Positions 35,469 through 63,337 of a stretch of DNA of 64,000 nt are shown here, piece by piece. The translations under genes and the position numbers were made by a program. Position 1 is the stretch's first letter. Every line of letters starts with the position of its first letter. The notes under the pieces are model-generated. The model did not search any database. It was not told the DNA's origin and saw nothing but the letters and a program-made list of their open reading frames with translations. The stretch is from positions 1 to 64,000 of the IMG/VR virus record IMGVR_UViG_3300008108_004064; one strand, given 5' to 3'. The DNA comes from a virus.

Positions 35469-36065
35469 ATGGATCATGATTTAGAATTTGAGAAGCAATA
35501 TTGGAATACTTGCGTTAATACTTTTTATGAGGACAAGAAGCAGTATACATATGCTAGTTATATGGGATTAACTAGAATGTGGGATAGTTTTGATGTACAA
35601 CATAAAACCATTCTGGATATTGGTGGCGGTCCTAGTAGTATGCTTTTGCGATGCGTAAATTTAAAAAAAGGAAAGATAGTAGATCCCATAGATTATCCGC
35701 AATGGACAAAAGATAGATATGCAATTCATAATGTAGATGTTGAAGTAAACTATGGTGAAAATATAAATGAAAAAGGTTGGGATGAGGTTTGGATATATAA
35801 TTGTTTACAACATGTTGAAAGTCCAGAAAAAATATTATTGAATGCGTTGAAGGCGGGAAAATTACTAAGACTTTTTGAATGGATAAACATTCCTCCGCAT
35901 CCCGGACATCCTCACGAGTTGACTTCTTCACTATTTTATAATATACTTACGGATGTTACTAAAACTAAATACTCCAGTGTAGTGAATCTTTGGGACGAGC
36001 CTTCGGCTTGTTATGGTGAAGCTTTTTATGATGTTTTTGAATCGTTAATATATGAGCAAAATTAA
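35469..36065 (+). CDS. Class I SAM-dependent methyltransferase
   Basis: This 198-residue protein has motif I LDIGGGPSSM near residues 44–53 and a later WDEVWIYNCLQHVESPEKIL block, which fits motif IV/V of small-molecule or glycan methyltransferases. No DNA-methyltransferase (N/D)PPY motif is present. Start is the ATG after a weak site four bases downstream of gp55. It overlaps queE by 14 bases, so it is probably part of the 7-deazaguanine operon, but its substrate is unknown. Confidence 0.75.
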   Translation: MDHDLEFEKQYWNTCVNTFYEDKKQYTYASYMGLTRMWDSFDVQHKTILDIGGGPSSMLLRCVNLKKGKIVDPIDYPQWTKDRYAIHNVDVEVNYGENINEKGWDEVWIYNCLQHVESPEKILLNALKAGKLLRLFEWINIPPHPGHPHELTSSLFYNILTDVTKTKYSSVVNLWDEPSACYGEAFYDVFESLIYEQN

Positions 36066-36906
36066 AGTATCTGAATTATTTTATTCTATCCAAGGTGAGG
36101 GGCGTTATATGGGCGTCCCTTCAATCTTTCTTAGAACCTTCGGTTGTAATTTTACATGCGATGGATTTGGTGTACCGAAAGGATTTGTAAATCATGCGCG
36201 AGACATTGTCGCCAAAGACGTTCATCTTTATAAGACTTATAAAGAGCTTCCTCTTGTATCCACTGGTTGTGATTCATACGCTAGTTGGGATCCTCGTTTC
36301 AAGCATCTTTCTCCCGTTCTATCTTGTGACAGTGTTGCCGAGGCAATTGTCGAACTACTTCCACACAAAGAGTGGAAAGACGAACATCTAGTTATTACGG
36401 GTGGAGAACCCTTATTGGGTTGGCAAAAAGCATACCCACTATTGTTAGAGCATCCTAAGATGAAAAATTTGGATGAACTAACTTTTGAGACTAATGGTAC
36501 TCAGCGTTTGAATCCTGAGTTAGAAGAATATCTATTTCAGGAATGGACTCGGTTTGGTCGAGACTATGATAAGTTAACTTTTTCAGTATCGCCTAAATTA
36601 TCGGTATCGGGTGAATCAAAAGAAGATGCTTTGAAACCTGAAGTAATTAAACAGTATCAGGATGTAGGATATACTTATCTAAAGTTTGTTGTGGCTTCGG
36701 AAGAGGATTTAAATGAAGCTGAAGAATGGATTGAGGAATATAAAAAGGCAGGCTTTAGTGGCCCAGTATATTTTATGCCGGTAGGTGGAGTCGAATCTGT
36801 TTACGTCTTAAATAATAAGAAGGTGGCAGAGTTGGCGTTGAAAAGAGGTTATAGGTATTCTGATAGATTGCAGGTGCCTTTATTTAAAAATGAATGGGGC
36901 ACTTAA
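36052..36906 (+). CDS. queE: 7-carboxy-7-deazaguanine synthase QueE
   Basis: This 284-residue radical-SAM enzyme begins with the QueE signature SELFYSIQGEGRYMGVPSIFLR. The cluster ligands are not a compact CxxxCxxC: Cys32 and Cys36 (CNFTC) are followed by the third likely ligand Cys73 in TGCDSYASW, an insertion seen in some phage QueE. The TGGEP motif lies near 116–120. QueE converts 6-carboxy-5,6,7,8-tetrahydropterin to 7-carboxy-7-deazaguanine. Its neighbours folE and queD supply the substrate, and a DpdA-like gene follows. Confidence 0.9.
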   Translation: MSKIKVSELFYSIQGEGRYMGVPSIFLRTFGCNFTCDGFGVPKGFVNHARDIVAKDVHLYKTYKELPLVSTGCDSYASWDPRFKHLSPVLSCDSVAEAIVELLPHKEWKDEHLVITGGEPLLGWQKAYPLLLEHPKMKNLDELTFETNGTQRLNPELEEYLFQEWTRFGRDYDKLTFSVSPKLSVSGESKEDALKPEVIKQYQDVGYTYLKFVVASEEDLNEAEEWIEEYKKAGFSGPVYFMPVGGVESVYVLNNKKVAELALKRGYRYSDRLQVPLFKNEWGT

Positions 36907-37083
36907 ATGTATGAAACTCATAAACGAACTTTTTTAAGAGCAGTAACTTGGAGAATAGTTGCTACTCTTGTTACTGCAATATGGACAGGATTAAGCGGAG
37001 CCATTATTATAAACATTTTTATGACAGTGGCACACTATATACATGAACGGGCATGGCTCAAGGTGAAGTGGGGAAGATTTTAA
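36907..37083 (+). CDS. Small membrane protein, DUF2061-like
   Basis: This 58-residue gene fills the space between queE and the phosphoribosyltransferase gene exactly: its ATG follows the queE stop and its TAA abuts the next ATG. It reads RTFLRAVTWRIVATLVTAIW near the N-terminus, then a hydrophobic GLSGAIIINIFMTVAHYIHE segment and ERAWLKVKWGRF. The AVTWRI-AT and HERAW patterns match DUF2061. Two membrane helices are likely. Its role is unknown. Confidence 0.75.
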   Translation: MYETHKRTFLRAVTWRIVATLVTAIWTGLSGAIIINIFMTVAHYIHERAWLKVKWGRF

Positions 37084-37509
37084 ATGAGATATTCTTTTCA
37101 GGAGTTTGATGAAGATATACATTATCTAGTTAAACAAATAGAACAATCTTCAAAAAAATATGATTATGTGGTTGGTATTAAACGAGGTGGTCTAATACCC
37201 GCAGTTTGTATCTCTAATGCATTAAAGGTTCCATTATATAGTTTATCTTGGTCTACTAGAGATTTTCCATATAGTGATACTCATAATTCAGCTCTTGCCC
37301 CACTCTCAAAAATACTTTTGGTAGATGATCTTTGTGATTCAGGCAAAACCTTAATTGGAATAAAAGAGTTATATTCCTTTTGCGATATTGACACGGCGGT
37401 GTTATTATATAATGTGGATCAAATCCATGTACCAACATACTATGCTAAAGAATTTAGTAGAAAAGAACAAAAAGAATTTATTGATTTCTGGTGGGAAGAT
37501 TATAAATAA
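37084..37509 (+). CDS. Type I phosphoribosyltransferase-like protein
   Basis: This 141-residue protein has the PRPP-binding loop ILLVDDLCDSGKT near residues 78–90 and an upstream YVVGIKRGGLIPAV segment (pyrophosphate loop). It resembles Gpt-type purine phosphoribosyltransferases. It lies in the 7-deazaguanine block and could salvage or charge a guanine-type base, but this is not shown. Its last codons (DYK, stop) contain the TATAAATA element described next. Confidence 0.8.
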   Translation: MRYSFQEFDEDIHYLVKQIEQSSKKYDYVVGIKRGGLIPAVCISNALKVPLYSLSWSTRDFPYSDTHNSALAPLSKILLVDDLCDSGKTLIGIKELYSFCDIDTAVLLYNVDQIHVPTYYAKEFSRKEQKEFIDFWWEDYK

Positions 37510-37530
37510 CTATGTCACATAAAGGTGACA
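37501..37530 (+). promoter_or_regulatory. Late-type promoter element and dyad before folE
   Basis: TATAAATA at 37501–37508 overlaps the stop of the upstream gene. Five bases later is a perfect 6-bp dyad, TGTCAC (37513–37518), ATAAAG loop, GTGACA (37525–37530). FolE would then be expressed late, which is unusual for a nucleotide-precursor enzyme. The element could also be coincidence, since the codons force part of it. The dyad may be a leader hairpin or an operator. Confidence 0.45.
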
Positions 37531-37569
37531 AATTTCTAAACTCATATCCGTGTAAGGAAGGATTCAAAA

Positions 37570-38247
37570 ATGTCATATAACAAAACAAAAACTGACCCTG
37601 AACTTGGTGCAAGGGTACATGAACATCTTGTAAAGATGGGCGTGGAAACTCCCTCATTTAAAACAACACTAGACCGTAAAGATAAGATTGCAGAAATTGA
37701 AAAAAGTTTCAGTCATATCATGCAGGTATTGGGTCTTGATTTAGACGACGATAGTCTAGCAGAAACTCCAAAGCGTGTTGCTAAGATGTACGTGAATGAA
37801 ATTTTCTGGGGACTAGATTACGACGCATTCCCTAAGTGTACTACTGTTGATAATAAGATGCATTACAATGAAATGGTAGTAGAACGTAATGTCATTGTTC
37901 AAAGTAATTGCGAACATCACTTTGTAGTTATTGACGGTCTTGCTACAGTAGCATATGTACCTAATAAAAAAGTATTGGGACTAAGTAAAATTAATCGTAT
38001 TGTGGAATACTTTAGTAAGCGTCCACAGATTCAGGAACGTCTAACAGAGCAAATTTTTCATGCACTAAGTTATATTCTTGAAACAGATGATGTCGCAGTA
38101 ATGATTGATGCTCAGCATTACTGTGTAAAATCTCGAGGCGTAGAAGATACGGGCAGTTCGACAGTAACAGTTCGTCTCGGTGGTGGCTTTAAAACCGATC
38201 CTGCAGCAAGAAATGAATTTTTAAGTATTGCCCGAATGGGAAAATAA
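37570..38247 (+). CDS. folE: GTP cyclohydrolase I, FolE
   Basis: This 225-residue enzyme has all the FolE metal ligands: Cys114 and His117 in the CEHH motif, and Cys185 in AQHYCVKSRGV. The family blocks LAETPKRVAKMYVNEIFWGLD and KVLGLSKINRIVEYFSKRPQIQERLTEQI (given in parts) are intact. FolE makes dihydroneopterin triphosphate from GTP, the entry of the 7-deazaguanine pathway. It has an AAGGAAG ribosome site and a 60-base leader. Confidence 0.95.
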   Translation: MSYNKTKTDPELGARVHEHLVKMGVETPSFKTTLDRKDKIAEIEKSFSHIMQVLGLDLDDDSLAETPKRVAKMYVNEIFWGLDYDAFPKCTTVDNKMHYNEMVVERNVIVQSNCEHHFVVIDGLATVAYVPNKKVLGLSKINRIVEYFSKRPQIQERLTEQIFHALSYILETDDVAVMIDAQHYCVKSRGVEDTGSSTVTVRLGGGFKTDPAARNEFLSIARMGK

Positions 38248-38760
38248 ATGACAGTTAATATTATGGTTGATCTGGAGACAATGTCTACTAGATCACACGC
38301 TGCGATTTGTTCAATAGGTGCAGTAAAGTTTGAAGGTAAAGAGATTCTCGATACCTTTTACTGCACCATTGACTTACGAACCTGCAAAGATGTTGGATTG
38401 CATATATCTAAAGAAACTGTGGAGTGGTGGTCAAAGCAAAACAAAGAAGCACTAAGAGCTTTAACTAAAGACACAATACCTTTGCAAGAAGCCTTAGATA
38501 AATTTGAGATTTGGTTAGGTCCTAAAAGTTTACCTGTCTGGGGGAATGGTGCAGTATTTGATAATACAATTCTTGCTAATGCATATTTTTATTCGGGTAG
38601 AGAACCTCCTTGGAAATGTTGGGATGACAGATGTTATCGAACGGTTAAGAATTTATTCCATTGGATTCCTGCAGACGAGAGAGAAGGTGTTTATCATAAT
38701 GCTTTAGATGATGCTATGTATCAGACAAAACATTTAATAAAGATTTTAGGTGAAGAATGA
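38248..38760 (+). CDS. DEDD-family 3'-5' exonuclease, DexA-like
   Basis: This 170-residue protein opens with the exonuclease I motif MVDLETMSTRSHAAICSIG (Asp8, Glu10), has KETVEWWSKQNKEAL and the VWGNGAVFDNTIL motif II, and ends with YHNALDDAMYQ (His, Asp). The ETVEWW segment resembles T4 DexA exonuclease A and the Rv2179c-like exoribonucleases. It starts one base after folE and overlaps the glycosyltransferase by four bases (ATGA). In T4 DexA contributes to host DNA degradation; here the operon link with base modification is notable. Confidence 0.85.
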   Translation: MTVNIMVDLETMSTRSHAAICSIGAVKFEGKEILDTFYCTIDLRTCKDVGLHISKETVEWWSKQNKEALRALTKDTIPLQEALDKFEIWLGPKSLPVWGNGAVFDNTILANAYFYSGREPPWKCWDDRCYRTVKNLFHWIPADEREGVYHNALDDAMYQTKHLIKILGEE

Positions 38761-40121
38761 ATACGTATCGTAAAAGAATTGCATTTTGCTTAAGTGATCA
38801 ACATACTATCCCTCATGGTGGCCTTGGTCAATTTGCTAAATCCTTCGTTGAGACTTTTACCCCTCTCGGATATAAGATCGATATCATCACAGACAAACCC
38901 ACAACCAATTTAGATTTTAAAAAATATTTAGAATCAGTTGGTGCTAACTTCGAATGGTGTCCTCAACCAATATCATATAGTAATCACACCAAAACATTTA
39001 TGTTTGAAGATTCCTATAACTTTGAGAAGATGGCATCGTTTAGAGATGCTATGATGCATGCTTTAAGTAGAAATCTCTATGACATTATTATCTGCAACAC
39101 ATTAGAATCTTTTCCCGCAATCTATTCGTTGAACCTACACAAAAATGTACAAATTATTTACTATACTCACAACGAAAGTATGGTATTTCTTGATGACAGA
39201 ACTTGGAAGAATGAATTTACAGAATCCTTTAACGAGGTGTTCAACGCATTGATGCGTGTTAAAGGCATTACTATAGGTACACAGACAGAGAGAAATTTAG
39301 TAGAATTAAATCATAATGGTATTTTAAATTCAGAGTGTTTACCGATTCCAATGACTGAAACTAGTTTGTTGGAAGAAAATTTTAATATTAGAGAAGGTAT
39401 TCTTTGGATCGGTCGTTGGGAGCCAAGAAAGAATCCTGATGAATATATTCGAGTAATTAAAGAAACAGGATTGCCTGCAAAAATTATTACCAATACAAAT
39501 GGTGCAAAAAAGTTCGCAGCTGAACTAGATGCAATAGGCGCTAAATATGAGATGAAGGTTGGGGTGTATGGAAAAGAGAAATCTGATTTTCTAAGATCTG
39601 CTAGGATAGCATATAACCCTGCTATTCGAGAAAGTTTTGGATTGGCATTTTGGGAAACGCTTGGACATATGCCAACCTTTGCTTTAGATGGTATGTCTTG
39701 GTTGAAAAATTTTAATAGTACTTTTTACTTTGCCGAAAGTAAAAATGTAATGGTCAATAAAATTAAAGATGCCTACGAAAAATATTCTAATCCAAAAGAT
39801 TGGTATGATACTGGAGCATTAGAATATGTTAAGAACATTAATAACGAAGGTATCAAAAAATGGATTGCCTGCTTTGATAGTTTTAAACCAACTCAATCAA
39901 ATTCAGATAAAGCAAAAATTAATGAAGTGGAAACCACATCATATAAAGAGTTCATTATAAGTCTAGAAAGAAAGGCTTTGGCTATCGACGATGTCAAATC
40001 TGTATTGACAAACAAAGGAAAATTTAATATAATCTATACTGATGAGAACACTTATTTAACCAAAGATAAAGACTTTATACCAACCGAAAGAAGTAACTCC
40101 TTAGAAAGTTTATTTGTATGA
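38757..40121 (+). CDS. GT-B glycosyltransferase coupled to dpdA-like gene
   Basis: This 454-residue protein is of GT-B type: an N-terminal domain with HGGLGQFAKSFVE and IIICNTLESFPAIYS, then a second domain with ILWIGRWEPRKNPDEY, AKIITNTNG, GKEKSDFLRSARIAYNPAIRESFGLAFWE (in parts). The overall order recalls T4 alpha-glucosyltransferase, which acts on modified DNA bases, but I cannot show closeness. It overlaps the exonuclease before it and the DpdA-like gene after it by four bases each. Tight coupling suggests that it modifies the base which DpdA inserts; this is inference. Confidence 0.8.
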   Translation: MNTYRKRIAFCLSDQHTIPHGGLGQFAKSFVETFTPLGYKIDIITDKPTTNLDFKKYLESVGANFEWCPQPISYSNHTKTFMFEDSYNFEKMASFRDAMMHALSRNLYDIIICNTLESFPAIYSLNLHKNVQIIYYTHNESMVFLDDRTWKNEFTESFNEVFNALMRVKGITIGTQTERNLVELNHNGILNSECLPIPMTETSLLEENFNIREGILWIGRWEPRKNPDEYIRVIKETGLPAKIITNTNGAKKFAAELDAIGAKYEMKVGVYGKEKSDFLRSARIAYNPAIRESFGLAFWETLGHMPTFALDGMSWLKNFNSTFYFAESKNVMVNKIKDAYEKYSNPKDWYDTGALEYVKNINNEGIKKWIACFDSFKPTQSNSDKAKINEVETTSYKEFIISLERKALAIDDVKSVLTNKGKFNIIYTDENTYLTKDKDFIPTERSNSLESLFV

Positions 40122-41407
40122 GCAAACAATTAGAATATGTTATATCAGGTCCTGCATACTTAAGACTGGGTGCAGAGCAATGTAATGATCCTGAGACTTT
40201 AGACATGATTAATAGCATGATTCTAAATACTGTTCACAATAAAAATAACCATCAGTTTTCTCTTTTGTATAATGGATTTACAGAAAAGAACTTTGGAGCC
40301 AAATTACAAAAGTACAGACCAGCAATTAAAAATATTCATGCAGACTCAGGCGGTCTGCAAATTATTACTAGGGGTCTACAAAATACTCCTGAGACAAGAG
40401 AAAAGGTTTATACGAATCAAGGAACCTATGCAGACATAGGTATGGCATTTGACGAAATTCCTGTTAAGGCAACAACTTCATCTGGCACTAGTTCTAAGAT
40501 TGATACTAAGCGTCGCTATGTAGATATAGAAAATTTTGATGCTTATGCAAAGCAAACAGGTAAGAATGTAAAAGATCAGATTGAAAAATTTGATGCTATG
40601 GGAAGTAAATGCCGACCATTTGTTATTGTACAAGGATCGGGTCATGATACCTATGCTAGATGGTCTGAGTTATTATTAAAAGAAATACCACAAAATTTAC
40701 ACAACAGAATAGGCGGAGTTGCTATGGGATCCGCTGCTTTAGGCATGGGTCCTTTGGAAGATGTTAAACGAGCATTTTATGCAACGACTGTTCCTTTTGA
40801 TAAACCTTTTCATCTACACGTTCTTGGTGTAGGTGCATTAAAACGAATCCTTCCTTATCTATTGTTTAGTCAAACTGGTTTATATGAAGGCATAGATATT
40901 TCATATGACTCAACTACACATTCTATGTCGCTGGACAATGGATTGTTTTATTTCTCATTTAGCAAAAAGAATGCGCCAGGTGATTATGGCGGATCATCTG
41001 TAAAAATGGGAAGGGCATATTCTAATATTTACAGAACAGTATCTGAAGAAATTAATTCTGTATGTGGTACATCATATGACCCCGAGGAGTATCACAAGTT
41101 AATGAATATTGCTGTTGGACAATATTTAGAAGAAGGCGGAAAGTTTATTGACATTATGAGAGCAAGATTGGGGTTTATTCTAACCAATGTACATAATTTT
41201 ACATATGACGTTTCTAATCTAATGAATTCTAAAGAAGCATTTTTAAAATTCTGCAGAGAAAAGAATTGTGAAAACGAATATGCCACATTATTTGACGTAA
41301 AAACAATTGATGACTTCAATCATTGGGAATCTCAGGTAGGTAAATTTATGGATTCAGAGCCAGTGAATATTGTAGCACCATCTTCACTTGAGGAGTTATT
41401 TGCATGA
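40118..41407 (+). CDS. dpdA: DpdA-like DNA transglycosylase (TGT-family 7-deazaguanine insertion)
   Basis: This 429-residue protein shows the tRNA-guanine transglycosylase pattern: HADSGGLQI with Asp76, ADIGMAFDEIPV, VQGSGHDTYARW at 171–182, GGVAMGS, HLHVLGVG at 232–239, and a DSTTHS motif at 264–269 for the second catalytic Asp. The CxCxxC zinc site of bacterial TGT is not visible. DpdA enzymes swap guanine in DNA for a 7-deazaguanine; QueE, FolE and QueD-like genes beside it favour DNA over tRNA as substrate. It is coupled by four-base overlaps to the GT-B gene before and the small T-fold gene after. Confidence 0.85.
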   Translation: MSKQLEYVISGPAYLRLGAEQCNDPETLDMINSMILNTVHNKNNHQFSLLYNGFTEKNFGAKLQKYRPAIKNIHADSGGLQIITRGLQNTPETREKVYTNQGTYADIGMAFDEIPVKATTSSGTSSKIDTKRRYVDIENFDAYAKQTGKNVKDQIEKFDAMGSKCRPFVIVQGSGHDTYARWSELLLKEIPQNLHNRIGGVAMGSAALGMGPLEDVKRAFYATTVPFDKPFHLHVLGVGALKRILPYLLFSQTGLYEGIDISYDSTTHSMSLDNGLFYFSFSKKNAPGDYGGSSVKMGRAYSNIYRTVSEEINSVCGTSYDPEEYHKLMNIAVGQYLEEGGKFIDIMRARLGFILTNVHNFTYDVSNLMNSKEAFLKFCREKNCENEYATLFDVKTIDDFNHWESQVGKFMDSEPVNIVAPSSLEELFA

Positions 41408-41799
41408 TTATTAGGCAAGACGTTAGACCCAATAAAATGATCTGGGTTACCTTTCGCAAAGAAGGTATTCATTGTTATCCCGCAGCAGCCACAGATCCTA
41501 ATCTAGCAACAGGAGACAAATATGATGTTTCGTTCCTTGCCAATCCTCATCGGCATATTTTTCATTTCAGGGTGTGGATCTCCATCACTCACAATGACCG
41601 TGATATCGAGTTCATCCAATTCAAACGGTGGTTGGAATCATTGTATTCAGGGGAAGAAGATTGTTTGCGATTGGACTACAAATCATGCGAGATGATGTCA
41701 GATGAATTATATGAAAGAATAACACAAAGATATCCTAATAGAGAAGTTTGGATTGAAGTATCCGAAGATGGTGAGAATGGTTCTTTTATTAAATACTGA
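41404..41799 (+). CDS. Small T-fold protein, QueD-like
   Basis: This 131-residue protein resembles a second 6-pyruvoyltetrahydropterin-synthase/QueD type T-fold domain. The N-terminal EGIHCYPAA lines up with the FxAAH ligand, the PHRHIFHFRVWI strand with LHGHxxxVxI, and IEFIQFKRWLE with DFxxLK. The CEMMSDELYERI and VWIEVSEDGENGSFI segments fit the C-terminal helix and Glu-containing strand. The alignment is my own reading. It starts in a four-base overlap with the DpdA-like gene. It may catalyse a tailoring or reduction step, or replace part of the QueD function, since the other QueD copy has an altered metal site. Confidence 0.6.
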   Translation: MIIRQDVRPNKMIWVTFRKEGIHCYPAAATDPNLATGDKYDVSFLANPHRHIFHFRVWISITHNDRDIEFIQFKRWLESLYSGEEDCLRLDYKSCEMMSDELYERITQRYPNREVWIEVSEDGENGSFIKY

Positions 41800-41806
41800 G
41801 GTTTAA

Positions 41807-42985
41807 ATGAATAAATTATATTACATGGGCTTAGAGCCTTACGAAGGTAGATATACTCTTCAGCTTCAACAATGGAATGAAGAAGTATTTAAACGTCGAG
41901 GCATTAATTATGAAATTATTCATGGTGATACCTTAGATAATTCTAAAGCAATTGTCACGGGACAAGTATTAGATGCACATGGAAGAAGCTATTATTCTTT
42001 GACGCAGATGGCAAAGCTTGTTCAAAAGATGAAAGCGGGCGAAATAAGATATGATGATGTAATTTTCTTTGAGGATATGTTTACCCCCGGTATAGAAGCT
42101 CTTCCATATATTATGGATCAGTGTGGCTGGGAATATCAACCAAGAGTTTTTGTTCGTTGTCTAGCACAGACTATTGATCCTGATGACTTTCTTCATGTCT
42201 GGGATATGCAGGAGTGGATGGCACATTATGAGAAGATGGTAAATGTATGGGTAAACGGAGTTCTTGCTTCTAATGAAGAAATGGTAGCCCATATGAAAAT
42301 TGCAGGTTGGAATGTTCCTATGTATAATATTTCTGGTCTTGCTTTTAGTAAAGATGAAGTTAGAAGTAGAGTTAAGGAAATTAAACCTTTTCAGGAAAGA
42401 AAAAATCGAGTTGTCTTTGCTGCAAGATTCGATCAAGAAAAACAACCTGATTTCTTTATGGATATTGTAGAACATTATGGGCCTAATTCTGATATAGAAT
42501 TTGCAGTATTGTCAGGTGGCCCATTACGCAGCAATGATGAAAAATATTTAGAAAGAGCAAAGCAACTTCAGGCTACTAATTCTAATTTTAAAATTTATGA
42601 AAATTTGCAAAAGAATGAATATTATGAAATTCTTGCAGATTCGAAAGTTCTATTTAATTGCGCACTACAGGATTGGGTAAGTAATACTGCATCAGAAGCA
42701 GACGCTCTAGGAACAAATTGTTTATTTCCTGCGTATAGATCATTCCCTGAGACTTTTGCTAATGATGCAGAATGCCTTTATATCCCTTGGTCAAAAGAAG
42801 ACGCTACAAATAAACTTGAATGTTTATTAGAATTTCCTAGAAGCAATATAGGTAAACTAGCAGATTGGACTTCAGGAACTATTGATAGATGTTTAGATAT
42901 TATTCTTTCAAATCCTGCAGCAAATGAGTATAATAGAAATGTTAAAACATATCGAAACTTTTTAGCACAAAGTAAATATGAATAA
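41807..42985 (+). CDS. GT-B glycosyltransferase
   Basis: This 392-residue protein is a two-domain glycosyltransferase. The N-terminal domain has LYYMGLEPYEGRYTLQLQQWNEEVF and an acidic EDMFTPGIEALPY stretch; the second domain has RVVFAARFDQEKQPDFFMDIVE and the YYEILADSKVLFNCALQDW then SNTASEADALGTNCLFPAY donor-site block. The QLQQWNEEVF-like start recurs in cyanophage proteins of unknown substrate. It ends in an eight-base overlap with the GalE-like gene, so nucleotide-sugar supply and transfer are probably linked. The acceptor could be DNA or a glycan. Confidence 0.75.
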   Translation: MNKLYYMGLEPYEGRYTLQLQQWNEEVFKRRGINYEIIHGDTLDNSKAIVTGQVLDAHGRSYYSLTQMAKLVQKMKAGEIRYDDVIFFEDMFTPGIEALPYIMDQCGWEYQPRVFVRCLAQTIDPDDFLHVWDMQEWMAHYEKMVNVWVNGVLASNEEMVAHMKIAGWNVPMYNISGLAFSKDEVRSRVKEIKPFQERKNRVVFAARFDQEKQPDFFMDIVEHYGPNSDIEFAVLSGGPLRSNDEKYLERAKQLQATNSNFKIYENLQKNEYYEILADSKVLFNCALQDWVSNTASEADALGTNCLFPAYRSFPETFANDAECLYIPWSKEDATNKLECLLEFPRSNIGKLADWTSGTIDRCLDIILSNPAANEYNRNVKTYRNFLAQSKYE

Positions 42986-43967
42986 TACTGTTATTGTAAC
43001 GGGTGCCGCCGGTTATATCGGTGGTACCATATGCGCTAAGCTCAAAGAAAAGGGGTATTCTGTTGTAGGTATAGATAGAAGAGAATTGCCCTCTCATCTA
43101 TATCAATACATAGACCATTTCCTTAAGGTAGATTTTACACATGAGTTTTCTTTAAGGCGTATTGACAGAAAACCGTTGGCGGTTATTCATTGCGCCGGAA
43201 CAAGTTTAGTTGGTCCTAGTATTGAAAATCCAAGTGGTTATTATGACAATAATGTAGTTAAAACTTTAAAGTATATAGATTACATAAGATCTCATTCTCC
43301 ATATACTAAATTTATTTTTAGTAGTAGTGCATCTGTATATGGTAATCCGATGAGTTCAAAACCAATTACTGAAAATTTTGACACTAACCCGATCTCGCCA
43401 TACGGTCAGTCTAAATTGATGACTGAGATGATGCTAAAATCTTTTAAAAGTGCCTATGATTTAAAATATGTTTCATTCAGATATTTTAATGCGTGCGGTG
43501 CCTTAAGCGATGGCGCACATGGTCAGGATCCCGATGCAACGCATATATTTGCCAGACTCTTTGAATCAATAAAAAAAGAAACACAATTCTTTTTAAATGG
43601 CAAAGATTATGTAACAAAGGATGGAACCTGCATACGAGATTATGTCCATGTAGAGGATATAGCCAATGCACACATAATAGCTATTGAAAAAAATATCGAA
43701 GGGATATATAATATAGGATCAGATACAGGTACGTCTAATCTAGAAATTATTAAACAGGTAGGTAAATTTTTCGGGAAACCTCTATCAATAGAGATTAAAG
43801 AACAAAGAATGGGGGATCCCGCAATTTTAGTTGCAAGTGCTAAAAAGTTATCTGATGAAACAGGCTGGAAAGCAGAACATAGTATCAAAAAAATTATTAA
43901 AGATTTAAATGATTGGTATGACTCTGAAAACTATGCCAAGAGGACTAAGGCAATCATCCCTCTATAA
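42978..43967 (+). CDS. galE: UDP-glucose/UDP-GlcNAc 4-epimerase-like, GalE family
   Basis: This 329-residue short-chain dehydrogenase has the NAD site GAAGYIGG near residues 9–16, FSSSASVYG for the catalytic Ser, and Tyr142-x3-Lys146 in SPYGQSK. The FRYFNACGA and THIFARLFE blocks match GalE rather than dTDP-glucose dehydratase. It would convert UDP-hexoses (for example UDP-Glc to UDP-Gal) for the adjacent glycosyltransferase. It is followed by a 41-base gap and queD. Confidence 0.85.
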   Translation: MNNTVIVTGAAGYIGGTICAKLKEKGYSVVGIDRRELPSHLYQYIDHFLKVDFTHEFSLRRIDRKPLAVIHCAGTSLVGPSIENPSGYYDNNVVKTLKYIDYIRSHSPYTKFIFSSSASVYGNPMSSKPITENFDTNPISPYGQSKLMTEMMLKSFKSAYDLKYVSFRYFNACGALSDGAHGQDPDATHIFARLFESIKKETQFFLNGKDYVTKDGTCIRDYVHVEDIANAHIIAIEKNIEGIYNIGSDTGTSNLEIIKQVGKFFGKPLSIEIKEQRMGDPAILVASAKKLSDETGWKAEHSIKKIIKDLNDWYDSENYAKRTKAIIPL

Positions 43968-44008
43968 AGACTCTGCTTGCTGTCAAACTTGCTCATAGGA
44001 GACTAGAG

Positions 44009-44536
44009 ATGGCAAAATTTTATTCAACAAAAACTTATGGTAATGACAGAGGATTGTCATGTTGTTTCAGACAATGGCGTGCTACACATAGTCATTGTTC
44101 AACATTGCATGGTTACTCAATTGGTATTAAACTCATATTTGAATGCGATACACTAGATGATAAAAATTGGTGTATGGACTTTGGTGGTCTTAAAGAATTC
44201 AAAGCATGGGCAGATCATATGTTCGATCACACATTAGTTGTTGCAGAAGACGACCCGCTGTTAGATCGTTTTAAAGAAATGAGCGGCTGGAGTTCTAATC
44301 CAGAGCATGACGGCAATCCTGAGCGAGTACAAGTAGAACCATATCGCAGATCGGGTGTTTGTGATCTACGTATTGTACCTTCTGTAGGATGTGAAATGTT
44401 TGCTAAACTATGCTATGACAAAATGGCAGAACTGTTGGCATCAGGTAGTATGCGCTATCCAATCAATCCAAGCGTAAGAGTAAAATCTGTAGAAGTATTT
44501 GAACATGCAGGTAACTCTGCTACATATGAAGGATAA
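44009..44536 (+). CDS. queD: 6-carboxytetrahydropterin synthase, QueD
   Basis: This 175-residue T-fold enzyme converts dihydroneopterin triphosphate to 6-carboxytetrahydropterin. Cys30 in CSTLHGY is the likely catalytic Cys, and the MDFGGLKEF, FDHTLVV and C-terminal VEVFEHAGNSATY segments match QueD. One point is odd: the usual HGH zinc motif reads HGY (His34, Tyr36), and the first His of FxAAH is replaced by Trp23; His27 or His29 may substitute. It has a strong AGGAGA ribosome site. Together with FolE and QueE it completes the route to 7-carboxy-7-deazaguanine. Confidence 0.88.
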   Translation: MAKFYSTKTYGNDRGLSCCFRQWRATHSHCSTLHGYSIGIKLIFECDTLDDKNWCMDFGGLKEFKAWADHMFDHTLVVAEDDPLLDRFKEMSGWSSNPEHDGNPERVQVEPYRRSGVCDLRIVPSVGCEMFAKLCYDKMAELLASGSMRYPINPSVRVKSVEVFEHAGNSATYEG

Positions 44537-45032
44537 AACAAATATAGCAAAAGGTGTCAATAGTAAGGATGAGAAGATAGGTGATTTGACTGTAGCATTT
44601 ATTAATCAAAGCACTTCTGAATATCCCGTTACTGTTGGCACCGCAAAGTTTGAACCTGTTCCCGTAACTAAACAAAAAGATTTAATGTTGAATGTAGCTA
44701 GACTACATGCACAACAAGAGTATGATAGAATAATGGAATTAGTTGCTGTGCTTCAAAAGCAAGCTAAGCAAATTATGAAGCGGCTGGAGTTTACAGATAA
44801 AGTCCATGCTGCAGAATATAAGTTTCAAATTTATCATGGACAATGTTATTGGTTAGCCTTTGATCTTAATATTAAAAAATATATTTTACACCACTTAGGA
44901 CCAAATGATTGGTCTACTGGCACACCCGATAATTTACAATACGTTACTCGTGTCAAATGGTTAGGTGATCATACCTGGTTAGAAGTCGATGAACATGGAA
45001 ATACAATAAATGAAAATAGCGCTAGTTACTGA
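44526..45032 (+). CDS. DUF2452-like protein
   Basis: This protein has the DUF2452 pattern: FEPVPVTKQKDLMLNVARLHAQQEYDRI, then FKFQIYHGQCYWLAFDL-like residues and KYILHHLGPNDWSTGTP with a C-terminal YVTRVKWLGDHTWLEVDE. I chose the ATG at 44526 (168 residues) over 44499, which would overlap queD by 38 bases; the chosen start still overlaps it by 11. The role of DUF2452 is not known to me. It overlaps gene 47 by 23 bases. Confidence 0.7.
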   Translation: MKDKTNIAKGVNSKDEKIGDLTVAFINQSTSEYPVTVGTAKFEPVPVTKQKDLMLNVARLHAQQEYDRIMELVAVLQKQAKQIMKRLEFTDKVHAAEYKFQIYHGQCYWLAFDLNIKKYILHHLGPNDWSTGTPDNLQYVTRVKWLGDHTWLEVDEHGNTINENSASY

Positions 45033-61830: not shown

Positions 61831-62268
61831 ATGAACACTAGTATATTAAGTATTTACGGGTCGCATGATGCATCCGCTACGTTTCTTGATAAAAATAATA
61901 AACTAAGAATTTTAGAATTAGAAAGATTCTCGGATATACGCTACGCAATGTTTAGTAAAAAATTTGATGATTGGCCTATCTGCGTAAAGGAAAAAGTCCG
62001 CGAGGATTTTCTCCTACACATAAAATCAGAAATAAAAGAACAACCTACAACTATTATATTTGGTAGTTTAATAGATAAAGATTTGGAATTACTTAGAAAA
62101 ATTTTTCCTACGTGTGAGAACTACGAACAATTTGATGCCCATCACCTATCTCATGCATATGGTTCCTATTTTCAATCTCCATTTAAGGATGCGTTAGTAT
62201 TTACTGTTGACGGAGGTGGAAGTGATCTTGGGGCATATACCACTACTAAAGTTTGGAATACCTATTAG
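61831..62268 (+). CDS. NodU/CmcH-family carbamoyltransferase, N-terminal fragment
   Basis: This 145-residue open frame encodes the beginning of a NodU/CmcH carbamoyltransferase: ILSIYGSHDASATFL corresponds to the GxHDASA nucleotide-binding motif, and HHLSHAYGSYFQSPFKDALVFTVDGGG to the HxxxHA/DGxG part. The frame then reads SDLGAYTTTKVWNTY and stops. The remaining domains are encoded in the +2 frame from about 62250. A single gene split by one base change is the simplest reading. Confidence 0.75.
   Translation: MNTSILSIYGSHDASATFLDKNNKLRILELERFSDIRYAMFSKKFDDWPICVKEKVREDFLLHIKSEIKEQPTTIIFGSLIDKDLELLRKIFPTCENYEQFDAHHLSHAYGSYFQSPFKDALVFTVDGGGSDLGAYTTTKVWNTY
62241..62268 (+). other. Frameshift zone in the carbamoyltransferase gene
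   Basis: The first frame reads GAYTTTK-VWNTY-stop; the second continues as KFGIPISEISPGKDNNDLGVF. If one A of the AAA at 62250–62254 is removed, the two frames join as GAYTTKFGIPISEI without a stop. Translation beyond this needs +1 frameshifting or the gene is broken. Sequencing error in the A-run is another possibility. Confidence 0.7.
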
Positions 62269-63337
62269 TGAAATTAGTCCTGGCAAGGATAACAATGACT
62301 TAGGAGTTTTTTTATCCTATGCAGGAAAAATAATGGGATTGTGCGCATATGGAAACATTAATGATAAATGGATTCCTGCGTTCGAAAGCTTTTATTTACA
62401 CAGAGATATAAAAAGATTGGGTAGAGAAATAAATTTAGATTTAAGTTTAAATACTATTTCAGGACAACTTGGATATGATTTAGCGGCAACATCCCAGCAT
62501 GTTTTTGAAAATCTTTTAATGGAGTTCATGCTAAATATTTTTTATCAAAATAAAAAGAATATTGTCATGACAGGAGGTTGTGCATTAAATGTTTTGTTCA
62601 ATCAAAAGTTAAAAAAGATTTTAAATGCTGAAGGATATGATTTATATGTACCTCCGAACCCTAATGATTGTGGACAATCATTAGGACAATATTTGTATAA
62701 GACAAAAGAGCATATTGAGCCGTTAGTCTATAGCGGCTTCGATATACTTGATAGAGATAAGTTTGATTTATTTTTATCTAATGGTAAGTATTTTACCGAG
62801 GAATCTTCCCCGGAAAAAATAGTTAGTTTAATTAGTGAAGGAAAAATTGGAGGCATCATACAAGGATATTCCGAAGTTGGTCCCAGAGCTTTAGGAAATA
62901 GAAGTATTATCTGCGACCCATCTTTTAAGGATATGAAAGATATCCTAAATGCAAAAGTTAAGTTTAGAGAATGGTTTAGGCCATTTGCCCCGGTATGCAG
63001 AGAAGAGGATATGCATAAGTATTTTGATGATGCCTTTGCTTCACATTATATGAGCTATGCTCCTTTGGTTAAAAAGGAATACAGAGATAAACTTCCATCG
63101 ATTACACACTATGATGGAACATCAAGATTACAAACTGTAAATAGTAAACAGCATAAACTATTTTATGATATACTTTCTTGTATGCAAAATACTAAGAAAA
63201 TACCAGTAATATTGAACACATCTTTTAATATTAAGGGAAGACCTATACTAACTAAAATAGAAGACGCCTTTTATGTTTTAGATAATACTGAATTGGATTT
63301 TTTGGTGGTAGAAAATTTACTAGTATTTAAAAAATAA
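62250..63337 (+). pseudogene. NodU/CmcH-family carbamoyltransferase, C-terminal part
   Basis: This frame (open from 62207, but TTG there is not a credible start) contains the rest of the family: LGVFLSYAGKIMGLCAYGN, NIVMTGGCALNVLFNQKL, GYSEVGPRALGNRSIICDP and NTSFNIKGRPIL. The conserved residues of the YrdC-like C-terminal carbamoyl-adenylate domain are present. The two fragments sum to about 500 residues, close to NodU/TobZ-type proteins. These enzymes carbamoylate hydroxyls of sugars; a phage DNA-carbamoyltransferase relative is also known. Confidence 0.75.

Follow-up and report, generated by a model that had tools for sequence, protein, structure and literature searches.

The window analysed here, the first 64 kb (64,000 nucleotides) of the linear, 126,298-base virus record IMGVR_UViG_3300008108_004064, carries an operon that we read, with a probability of roughly 0.55, as replacing guanine in the virus's own DNA with a 7-deazaguanine made independently of QueC and then probably capped with a sugar. 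Its genes, all on the + strand, encode QueE, a phosphoribosyltransferase-like protein, FolE, a first glycosyltransferase (GT1), a DpdA-type enzyme, a DpdL-like paralogue of QueD, a second glycosyltransferase (GT2), GalE and QueD. The operon is very probably a DNA 7-deazaguanine system, as suggested by protein families, folds, catalytic residues and gene distribution, from which all of its reactions are predicted. An earlier note on this DNA, made from its letters alone, had proposed a guanine-replacement pathway of several genes with a DpdA-like inserter and without QueC; that proposal is supported, and the FolE, QueE, QueD, QueD-like and DpdA-like genes were all found at the positions it had given. 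The virus is a T4-like myovirus, judging from its portal and terminase families, and its major capsid protein is nearest to those of Pelagibacter phage HTVC008M and Methylophilales phage Melnitz (about 63%).

In the proposed pathway, FolE, QueD and QueE, assigned by family, would make 7-carboxy-7-deazaguanine (CDG) from GTP. The DpdL-like T-fold protein would act on CDG, with decarboxylation to 7-deazaguanine the most likely reaction, whereas QueC would make 7-cyano-7-deazaguanine (preQ0). A DpdA2-type enzyme would exchange the modified base into DNA post-replicatively, and the guanine released by DpdA may be salvaged by the phosphoribosyltransferase. GT2, whose partnership is shown by gene distribution, would then add a sugar, with a donor from GalE or other phage sugar-nucleotide enzymes. 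The purpose would probably be to shield the DNA from host nucleases, in line with other 7-deazaguanines of phages.

The earlier note had seen no QueC in the window and had suggested a search of the full genome. With Pfam PF06508 and a phage-QueC profile, no match was found in the window or anywhere else in the 126,298 bases, the second half of the record included; the absence of QueC from the virus itself is strongly suggested, to the extent that a linear record, possibly an incomplete fragment, can speak for gene absences. QueC was also not detected above the family cut-off in any of 26 further records carrying DpdL-like or DpdA genes, including seven named isolate phages, and one weak match below the cut-off was seen among them, in Xanthomonas phage X1. 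Across 147 distinct DpdA2 loci, DpdL occurs in 106 and QueC in 28, the two never occur together, and 13 loci have neither (in 11 of these, the flank is shorter than 4 kb on one or both sides). KVP40, pf16 and Mendera, for example, have DpdA2 with QueC beside it and no DpdL. Mapping the DpdL label onto a tree of 66 representatives takes four changes, of which at least three are forced by well-supported branches, indicating that DpdL and QueC have been swapped repeatedly. Mutual exclusivity and repeated swapping together argue that the missing QueC has been replaced, and the distribution of the genes makes DpdL its likely replacement. Among QueC-less DpdA2 loci that are well flanked (at least 4 kb of sequence on both sides), all but two have both a DpdL-like gene and GT2, and those two have GT2 only.

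The DpdL-like gene (41404..41799) encodes a product of 131 residues that belongs to no named family (phrog_17812, function unknown). Sequence profiles of this protein and of DpdA gave nothing convincing against the PDB, so structure prediction was needed. For the AlphaFold2 model of the DpdL-like protein (predicted local distance difference test score, pLDDT, 86), the top PDB match is E. coli QueD (E 1.1e-4, probability 1.00), and hhalign against QueD gives a probability of 41% and an E-value of 0.00028, a result to be read jointly with the fold. Residues H23, H49 and H51 align to the zinc histidines of QueD and C95-E96 to its SE; at the position of QueD Cys27 there is an invariant Leu45, and nothing corresponds to the Asp70-His71 pair. 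Since the zinc ligands are kept and Cys27 and Asp70-His71 are lost, we infer that the protein retains the QueD fold and metal site and not QueD chemistry. The QueD-like paralogue noted earlier is thus present, and has a QueD fold; what it had not been given was a role. DpdL is reportedly a QueD-like protein that is predicted to decarboxylate CDG and so to substitute for QueC, and the 41404–41799 product, which stands with folE, queD, queE and a dpdA and without queC, presumably corresponds to this predicted CDG decarboxylase. In Cellulophaga phage phiST, reportedly the phage with 2'-deoxy-7-deazaguanosine (dDG) in its DNA, a homologue with 32% identity adjoins queE, folE and queD.

The predicted inserter is encoded at 40118..41407. 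Its product has no Pfam match and a weak match to Tgt (TIGR00430, 1e-5), and its key residues, D76 in DSGGLQ, Q172-G173 in VQGS, LGVG at 236-239 and D264 in YDST, are invariant or nearly so among diverged relatives. When a profile of 12 diverged members was aligned with E. coli Tgt (hhalign, E 8e-8), D76 matched the Asp of DSGGFQ and D264 the catalytic Asp of FDCVMP, and QG and LGVG aligned as well, so that the residues singled out in the earlier note are confirmed by both conservation and alignment. An AlphaFold2 model built with 36 relatives (pLDDT 91; predicted template modelling score, pTM, 0.90) was compared with the PDB by Foldseek, a check the note had called for, and ranks 1-9 are all structures of tRNA-guanine transglycosylases (TGTs) or the bacterial DpdA 7ui4, with no unrelated family among them. 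On this model, the protein is a TGT/DpdA enzyme, whose fold and catalytic residues point to insertion of bases into DNA as its activity. It belongs to the same family as the KVP40-type DpdA2 (28.7% identity to KVP40 over 96%, E 1e-48); a scan with KVP40 DpdA as sole query returned two near-identical records only.

GT2 (41807..42985) starts 7 bases after the DpdL-like gene and has a Glycos_transf_1 domain (PF00534, 3e-6) together with RxxxEK and E/D-x7-E motifs, making it a GT-B/GT4-like glycosyltransferase, predicted from its pairing with DpdL to act on the modified base. It is followed by galE (42978..43967), which encodes a UDP-glucose 4-epimerase (TIGR01179 at 3.8e-86, above cut-off; GxxGxxG and YxxxK motifs) and is a possible source of sugar donor. 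The earlier note left the two glycosyltransferase genes and galE unconnected to the pathway. In well-flanked DpdA2 loci, however, GT2 is found in 68/68 with DpdL and in 0/19 with QueC, and it lies within 500 bp of DpdL in 297 of the 306 loci (not deduplicated) that carry both. The slot adjacent to DpdL is occupied, in L141 and relatives, by a GT2 only about 24% identical to that of the window. In a search of 50,697 isolate-phage records, matches to the window GT2 were confined to BUCT-ZZ01, ACP17 (two records) and X1, and those to a diverged GT2, at 80% coverage or more, to PA5oct-like phages, Phosso, ACP17 and X1; every isolate phage so matched carries DpdL. Profiles of the window glycosyltransferases found only WlaC and the trehalose synthase TreT in the PDB, with weak E-values. 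Sugar-nucleotide genes lie inside the operons of several lineages, namely galE, a fusion of a cytidylyltransferase with a mannose-phosphate isomerase-type cupin (MannoseP_isomer), and a PIG-L-like domain joined to DpdL. From these neighbourhoods, the chance that a sugar is added at all appears to be about even.

Several observations weigh against a sugar-capped product. The sugar step is predicted from gene neighbourhoods, both here and in the relatives that carry GT2. Glycosyltransferases are widespread among phages, and a separate large glycan cluster (52280 to about 68669 of the record) is present in this genome; even so, the perfect split of GT2 between DpdL and QueC loci weakens the idea that the glycosyltransferases of the operon are random glycan genes. 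DpdL occurs without a GT2 match in Cellulophaga phage phiST, Rhizobium phage RHph_I1_18, Vibrio phage D479 and Aeromonas phage Ahp1, which shows that DpdL need not be accompanied by a sugar. The excess of sugar-nucleotide genes in DpdL over QueC representatives is modest (13/40 versus 1/23; Fisher p 0.011, uncorrected for relatedness), and the PIG-L-like domain, joined to DpdL in L246, is a weak Pfam match (E 0.006), its PHxDDE motif being found also in L262 and X1. Finally, C7 of plain 7-deazaguanine bears no oxygen that could obviously accept a sugar, so that either the glycosylation chemistry would be unusual or the product of DpdL would differ from plain 7-deazaguanine. C7 is the nucleophilic carbon of the ring, and a C-glycoside is therefore chemically thinkable.

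In a rival reading the end product would be plain dDG, with DpdL decarboxylating CDG, DpdA2 inserting the result and the glycosyltransferases unrelated. The phages with DpdL and no GT2 match speak for this, as does the reported occurrence of DpdL and of dDG in phages; we nevertheless consider it unlikely, given how cleanly GT2 partitions with DpdL among DpdA2 phages, how few relatives GT2 has in other isolate phages, and that the slot is kept at such low identity. The earlier note had suggested as possible an end product that keeps the carboxy group (dCDG) unless QueC lay elsewhere or came from the host, and such a base, inserted directly, or preQ0 or 7-amido-7-deazaguanine (ADG) supplied for insertion through a host QueC, would be compatible with a record in which no QueC was found; dCDG has reportedly been seen in phage DNA. 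A 2019 survey also noted that a phage lacking QueC alone might carry CDG (Hutinet et al., 2019; PMC6884629). This is not the best reading, and we regard it as improbable: the QueD-like gene takes the place of QueC throughout, and host QueC in particular is less likely given that DpdL and QueC exclude one another; were host QueC sufficient, the DpdL-like gene and its partner GT2 would be superfluous. The DpdL-like gene and GT2 more plausibly stand in for QueC.

It is very improbable that the pathway serves to raise queuosine in host tRNA rather than to modify DNA. FolE, QueD and QueE are common to queuosine synthesis and the 40118 product is a member of the TGT superfamily, but that product groups with phage DpdA2 of the KVP40/nt-1 type and is very divergent from tRNA TGTs. 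Moreover, 7-aminomethyl-7-deazaguanine (preQ1) requires both QueC and QueF; of these only QueC was searched for, and the record gave no match.

Parts of this scheme are already known. DpdA2 phages with a preQ0/G+ pathway include Vibrio phages nt-1 and KVP40 (Hutinet et al., 2019; PMC6884629). These share with the window a homologous DpdA2 gene beside folE and an equivalent early pathway, and differ from it in having queC beside dpdA and neither a DpdL-like gene nor GT2. DpdA2 and phages without queC are therefore not new, and DpdL, dDG and dCDG have reportedly also been described. Like the phages reported to carry these, the window has a QueD-like protein predicted to replace QueC, with its phiST homologue beside folE and queE; unlike them, it pairs the DpdL-like gene with a glycosyltransferase and a DpdA2-type inserter. 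Glycosylation of a modified base in DNA has a counterpart in the alpha- and beta-glucosyltransferases of T4 and the arabinosylation of RB69, which act on 5-hydroxymethylcytosine; the inferred arrangement is similar in that a phage-encoded glycosyltransferase would act after the base is in place, and different in that the base would be 7-deazaguanine. In animal tRNA, queuosine is glycosylated to mannosyl-queuosine (manQ) and galactosyl-queuosine (galQ), again by glycosyltransferases acting on a 7-deazaguanine nucleotide, as GT2 would, but there the nucleic acid is tRNA and the sugar sits on the cyclopentenediol of queuosine, which the window pathway does not make. The 7-deazaguanine bases known from phages bear small substituents at C7. 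Glycosylated deazaguanine in phage DNA did not turn up in the literature library searched, and we know of no sugar-bearing deazaguanine in any DNA.

A sugar on 7-deazaguanine would, if real, add a class to the known hypermodifications of DNA, perhaps a common one, given that hundreds of viral contigs were matched; the gene order of the pathway recurs in dozens of other contigs, with homologies far above chance. The gene pattern further predicts that QueC phages and DpdL–GT phages contain different bases, and DpdL–GT phages already isolated include ACP17, PA5oct/Paride and BUCT-ZZ01. The pairing also extends to another inserter: a second TGT/DpdA-like family of about 512 amino acids (e.g., L048:6033-7571), with the motifs DSGGYQ, LQG and SFDCASP and no Pfam or PHROG match, lies upstream of DpdL in 68/68 checkable loci, and GT2 is found in 75/80 of this set. 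Tentatively, and with somewhat less than even confidence, we suggest that widespread aquatic phages carry glycosylated 7-deazaguanine in their DNA, possibly as a C-glycoside at the carbon freed by decarboxylation, through a DpdL–GT pair that takes over from QueC and cooperates with two or more widely divergent DpdA subfamilies. By inspection, a short TGT-like protein of a third type (about 260-290 amino acids) was seen near DpdL in phages without a GT2 match (L002:8813-9592, L389:7749-8543, L387:7450-8322 and L388:7683-8540; phages of Cellulophaga, Chryseobacterium, Aeromonas and Vibrio), and phiST, RHph_I1_18, D479 and Ahp1 mostly appear to have it.

The early pathway genes proposed in the earlier note are borne out by family matches. 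FolE (37570..38247), GTP cyclohydrolase I, matches TIGR00063 at 1e-70, above the curated cut-off. QueE (36052..36906) is a QueE-like radical-SAM 7-carboxy-7-deazaguanine synthase by its matches to phrog_2076 (2.6e-54) and to QueE structures in the PDB, with NCBIfam QueE models at 7e-17 and weaker, under their cut-offs. It has the three-cysteine radical-SAM motif, C32-x3-C36-x36-C73, which is 99% conserved across 177 relatives and in which an insertion displaces the third cysteine. QueD (44009..44536), 6-carboxytetrahydropterin synthase, matches PF01242 (PTPS) at 1.6e-16 and phrog_2389 at 8.5e-36; its residues C30, H34-G35-Y36, D73-H74 and E165 are conserved (110 relatives), and the Cys, Asp-His and Glu of QueD are thereby kept. 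Its zinc motif reads HGY instead of HGH, with Tyr at the third ligand position, as in 94% of phage relatives. A DUF2452 protein (44499-45032), conserved in many related loci, directly follows queD. The xanthine/guanine phosphoribosyltransferase-like gene (37084..37509; PF00156, 5e-12) recurs in many related operons. GT1 (38757..40121), of GT-B type by weak Pfam matches to Glycos_transf_1 and Glyco_transf_4 and an EX7E motif, has a stop that overlaps the DpdA start, and is found in a subset of related loci. A PADLOC run returned nothing relevant.

Other arrangements of these genes were seen elsewhere. In Vibrio phage Bakedbeans (L386:6212-7363) and Chryseobacterium phage MA9V-3 (L389:6395-7276), DpdL forms fusions with unrelated N-terminal regions. 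PAPS-reductase-type PP-loop proteins (L246:9274-9864, L262:9274-9888 and L003:2843-3376) occur alongside a PIG-L-like domain in DpdA operons of phages that lack QueC, and L276:4879-9004 and L370 have DpdA2, GT2 and another glycosyltransferase-like open reading frame, with no DpdL or QueC detectable within the stretch. The glycan cluster of the present genome includes genes for a GDP-mannose dehydratase-like protein (53034, by eye), an FkbM methyltransferase (54133), a GDP-fucose synthase-like epimerase (54762), a DegT aminotransferase (55724), a GT10 fucosyltransferase (58215), a family 2 glycosyltransferase (60421) and epimerases (64823 and 67668). A NodU-type carbamoyltransferase-like protein, recognised by eye, is split there between two overlapping frames (61831-62268 and 62207-63337), possibly by a frameshift or a sequencing error.

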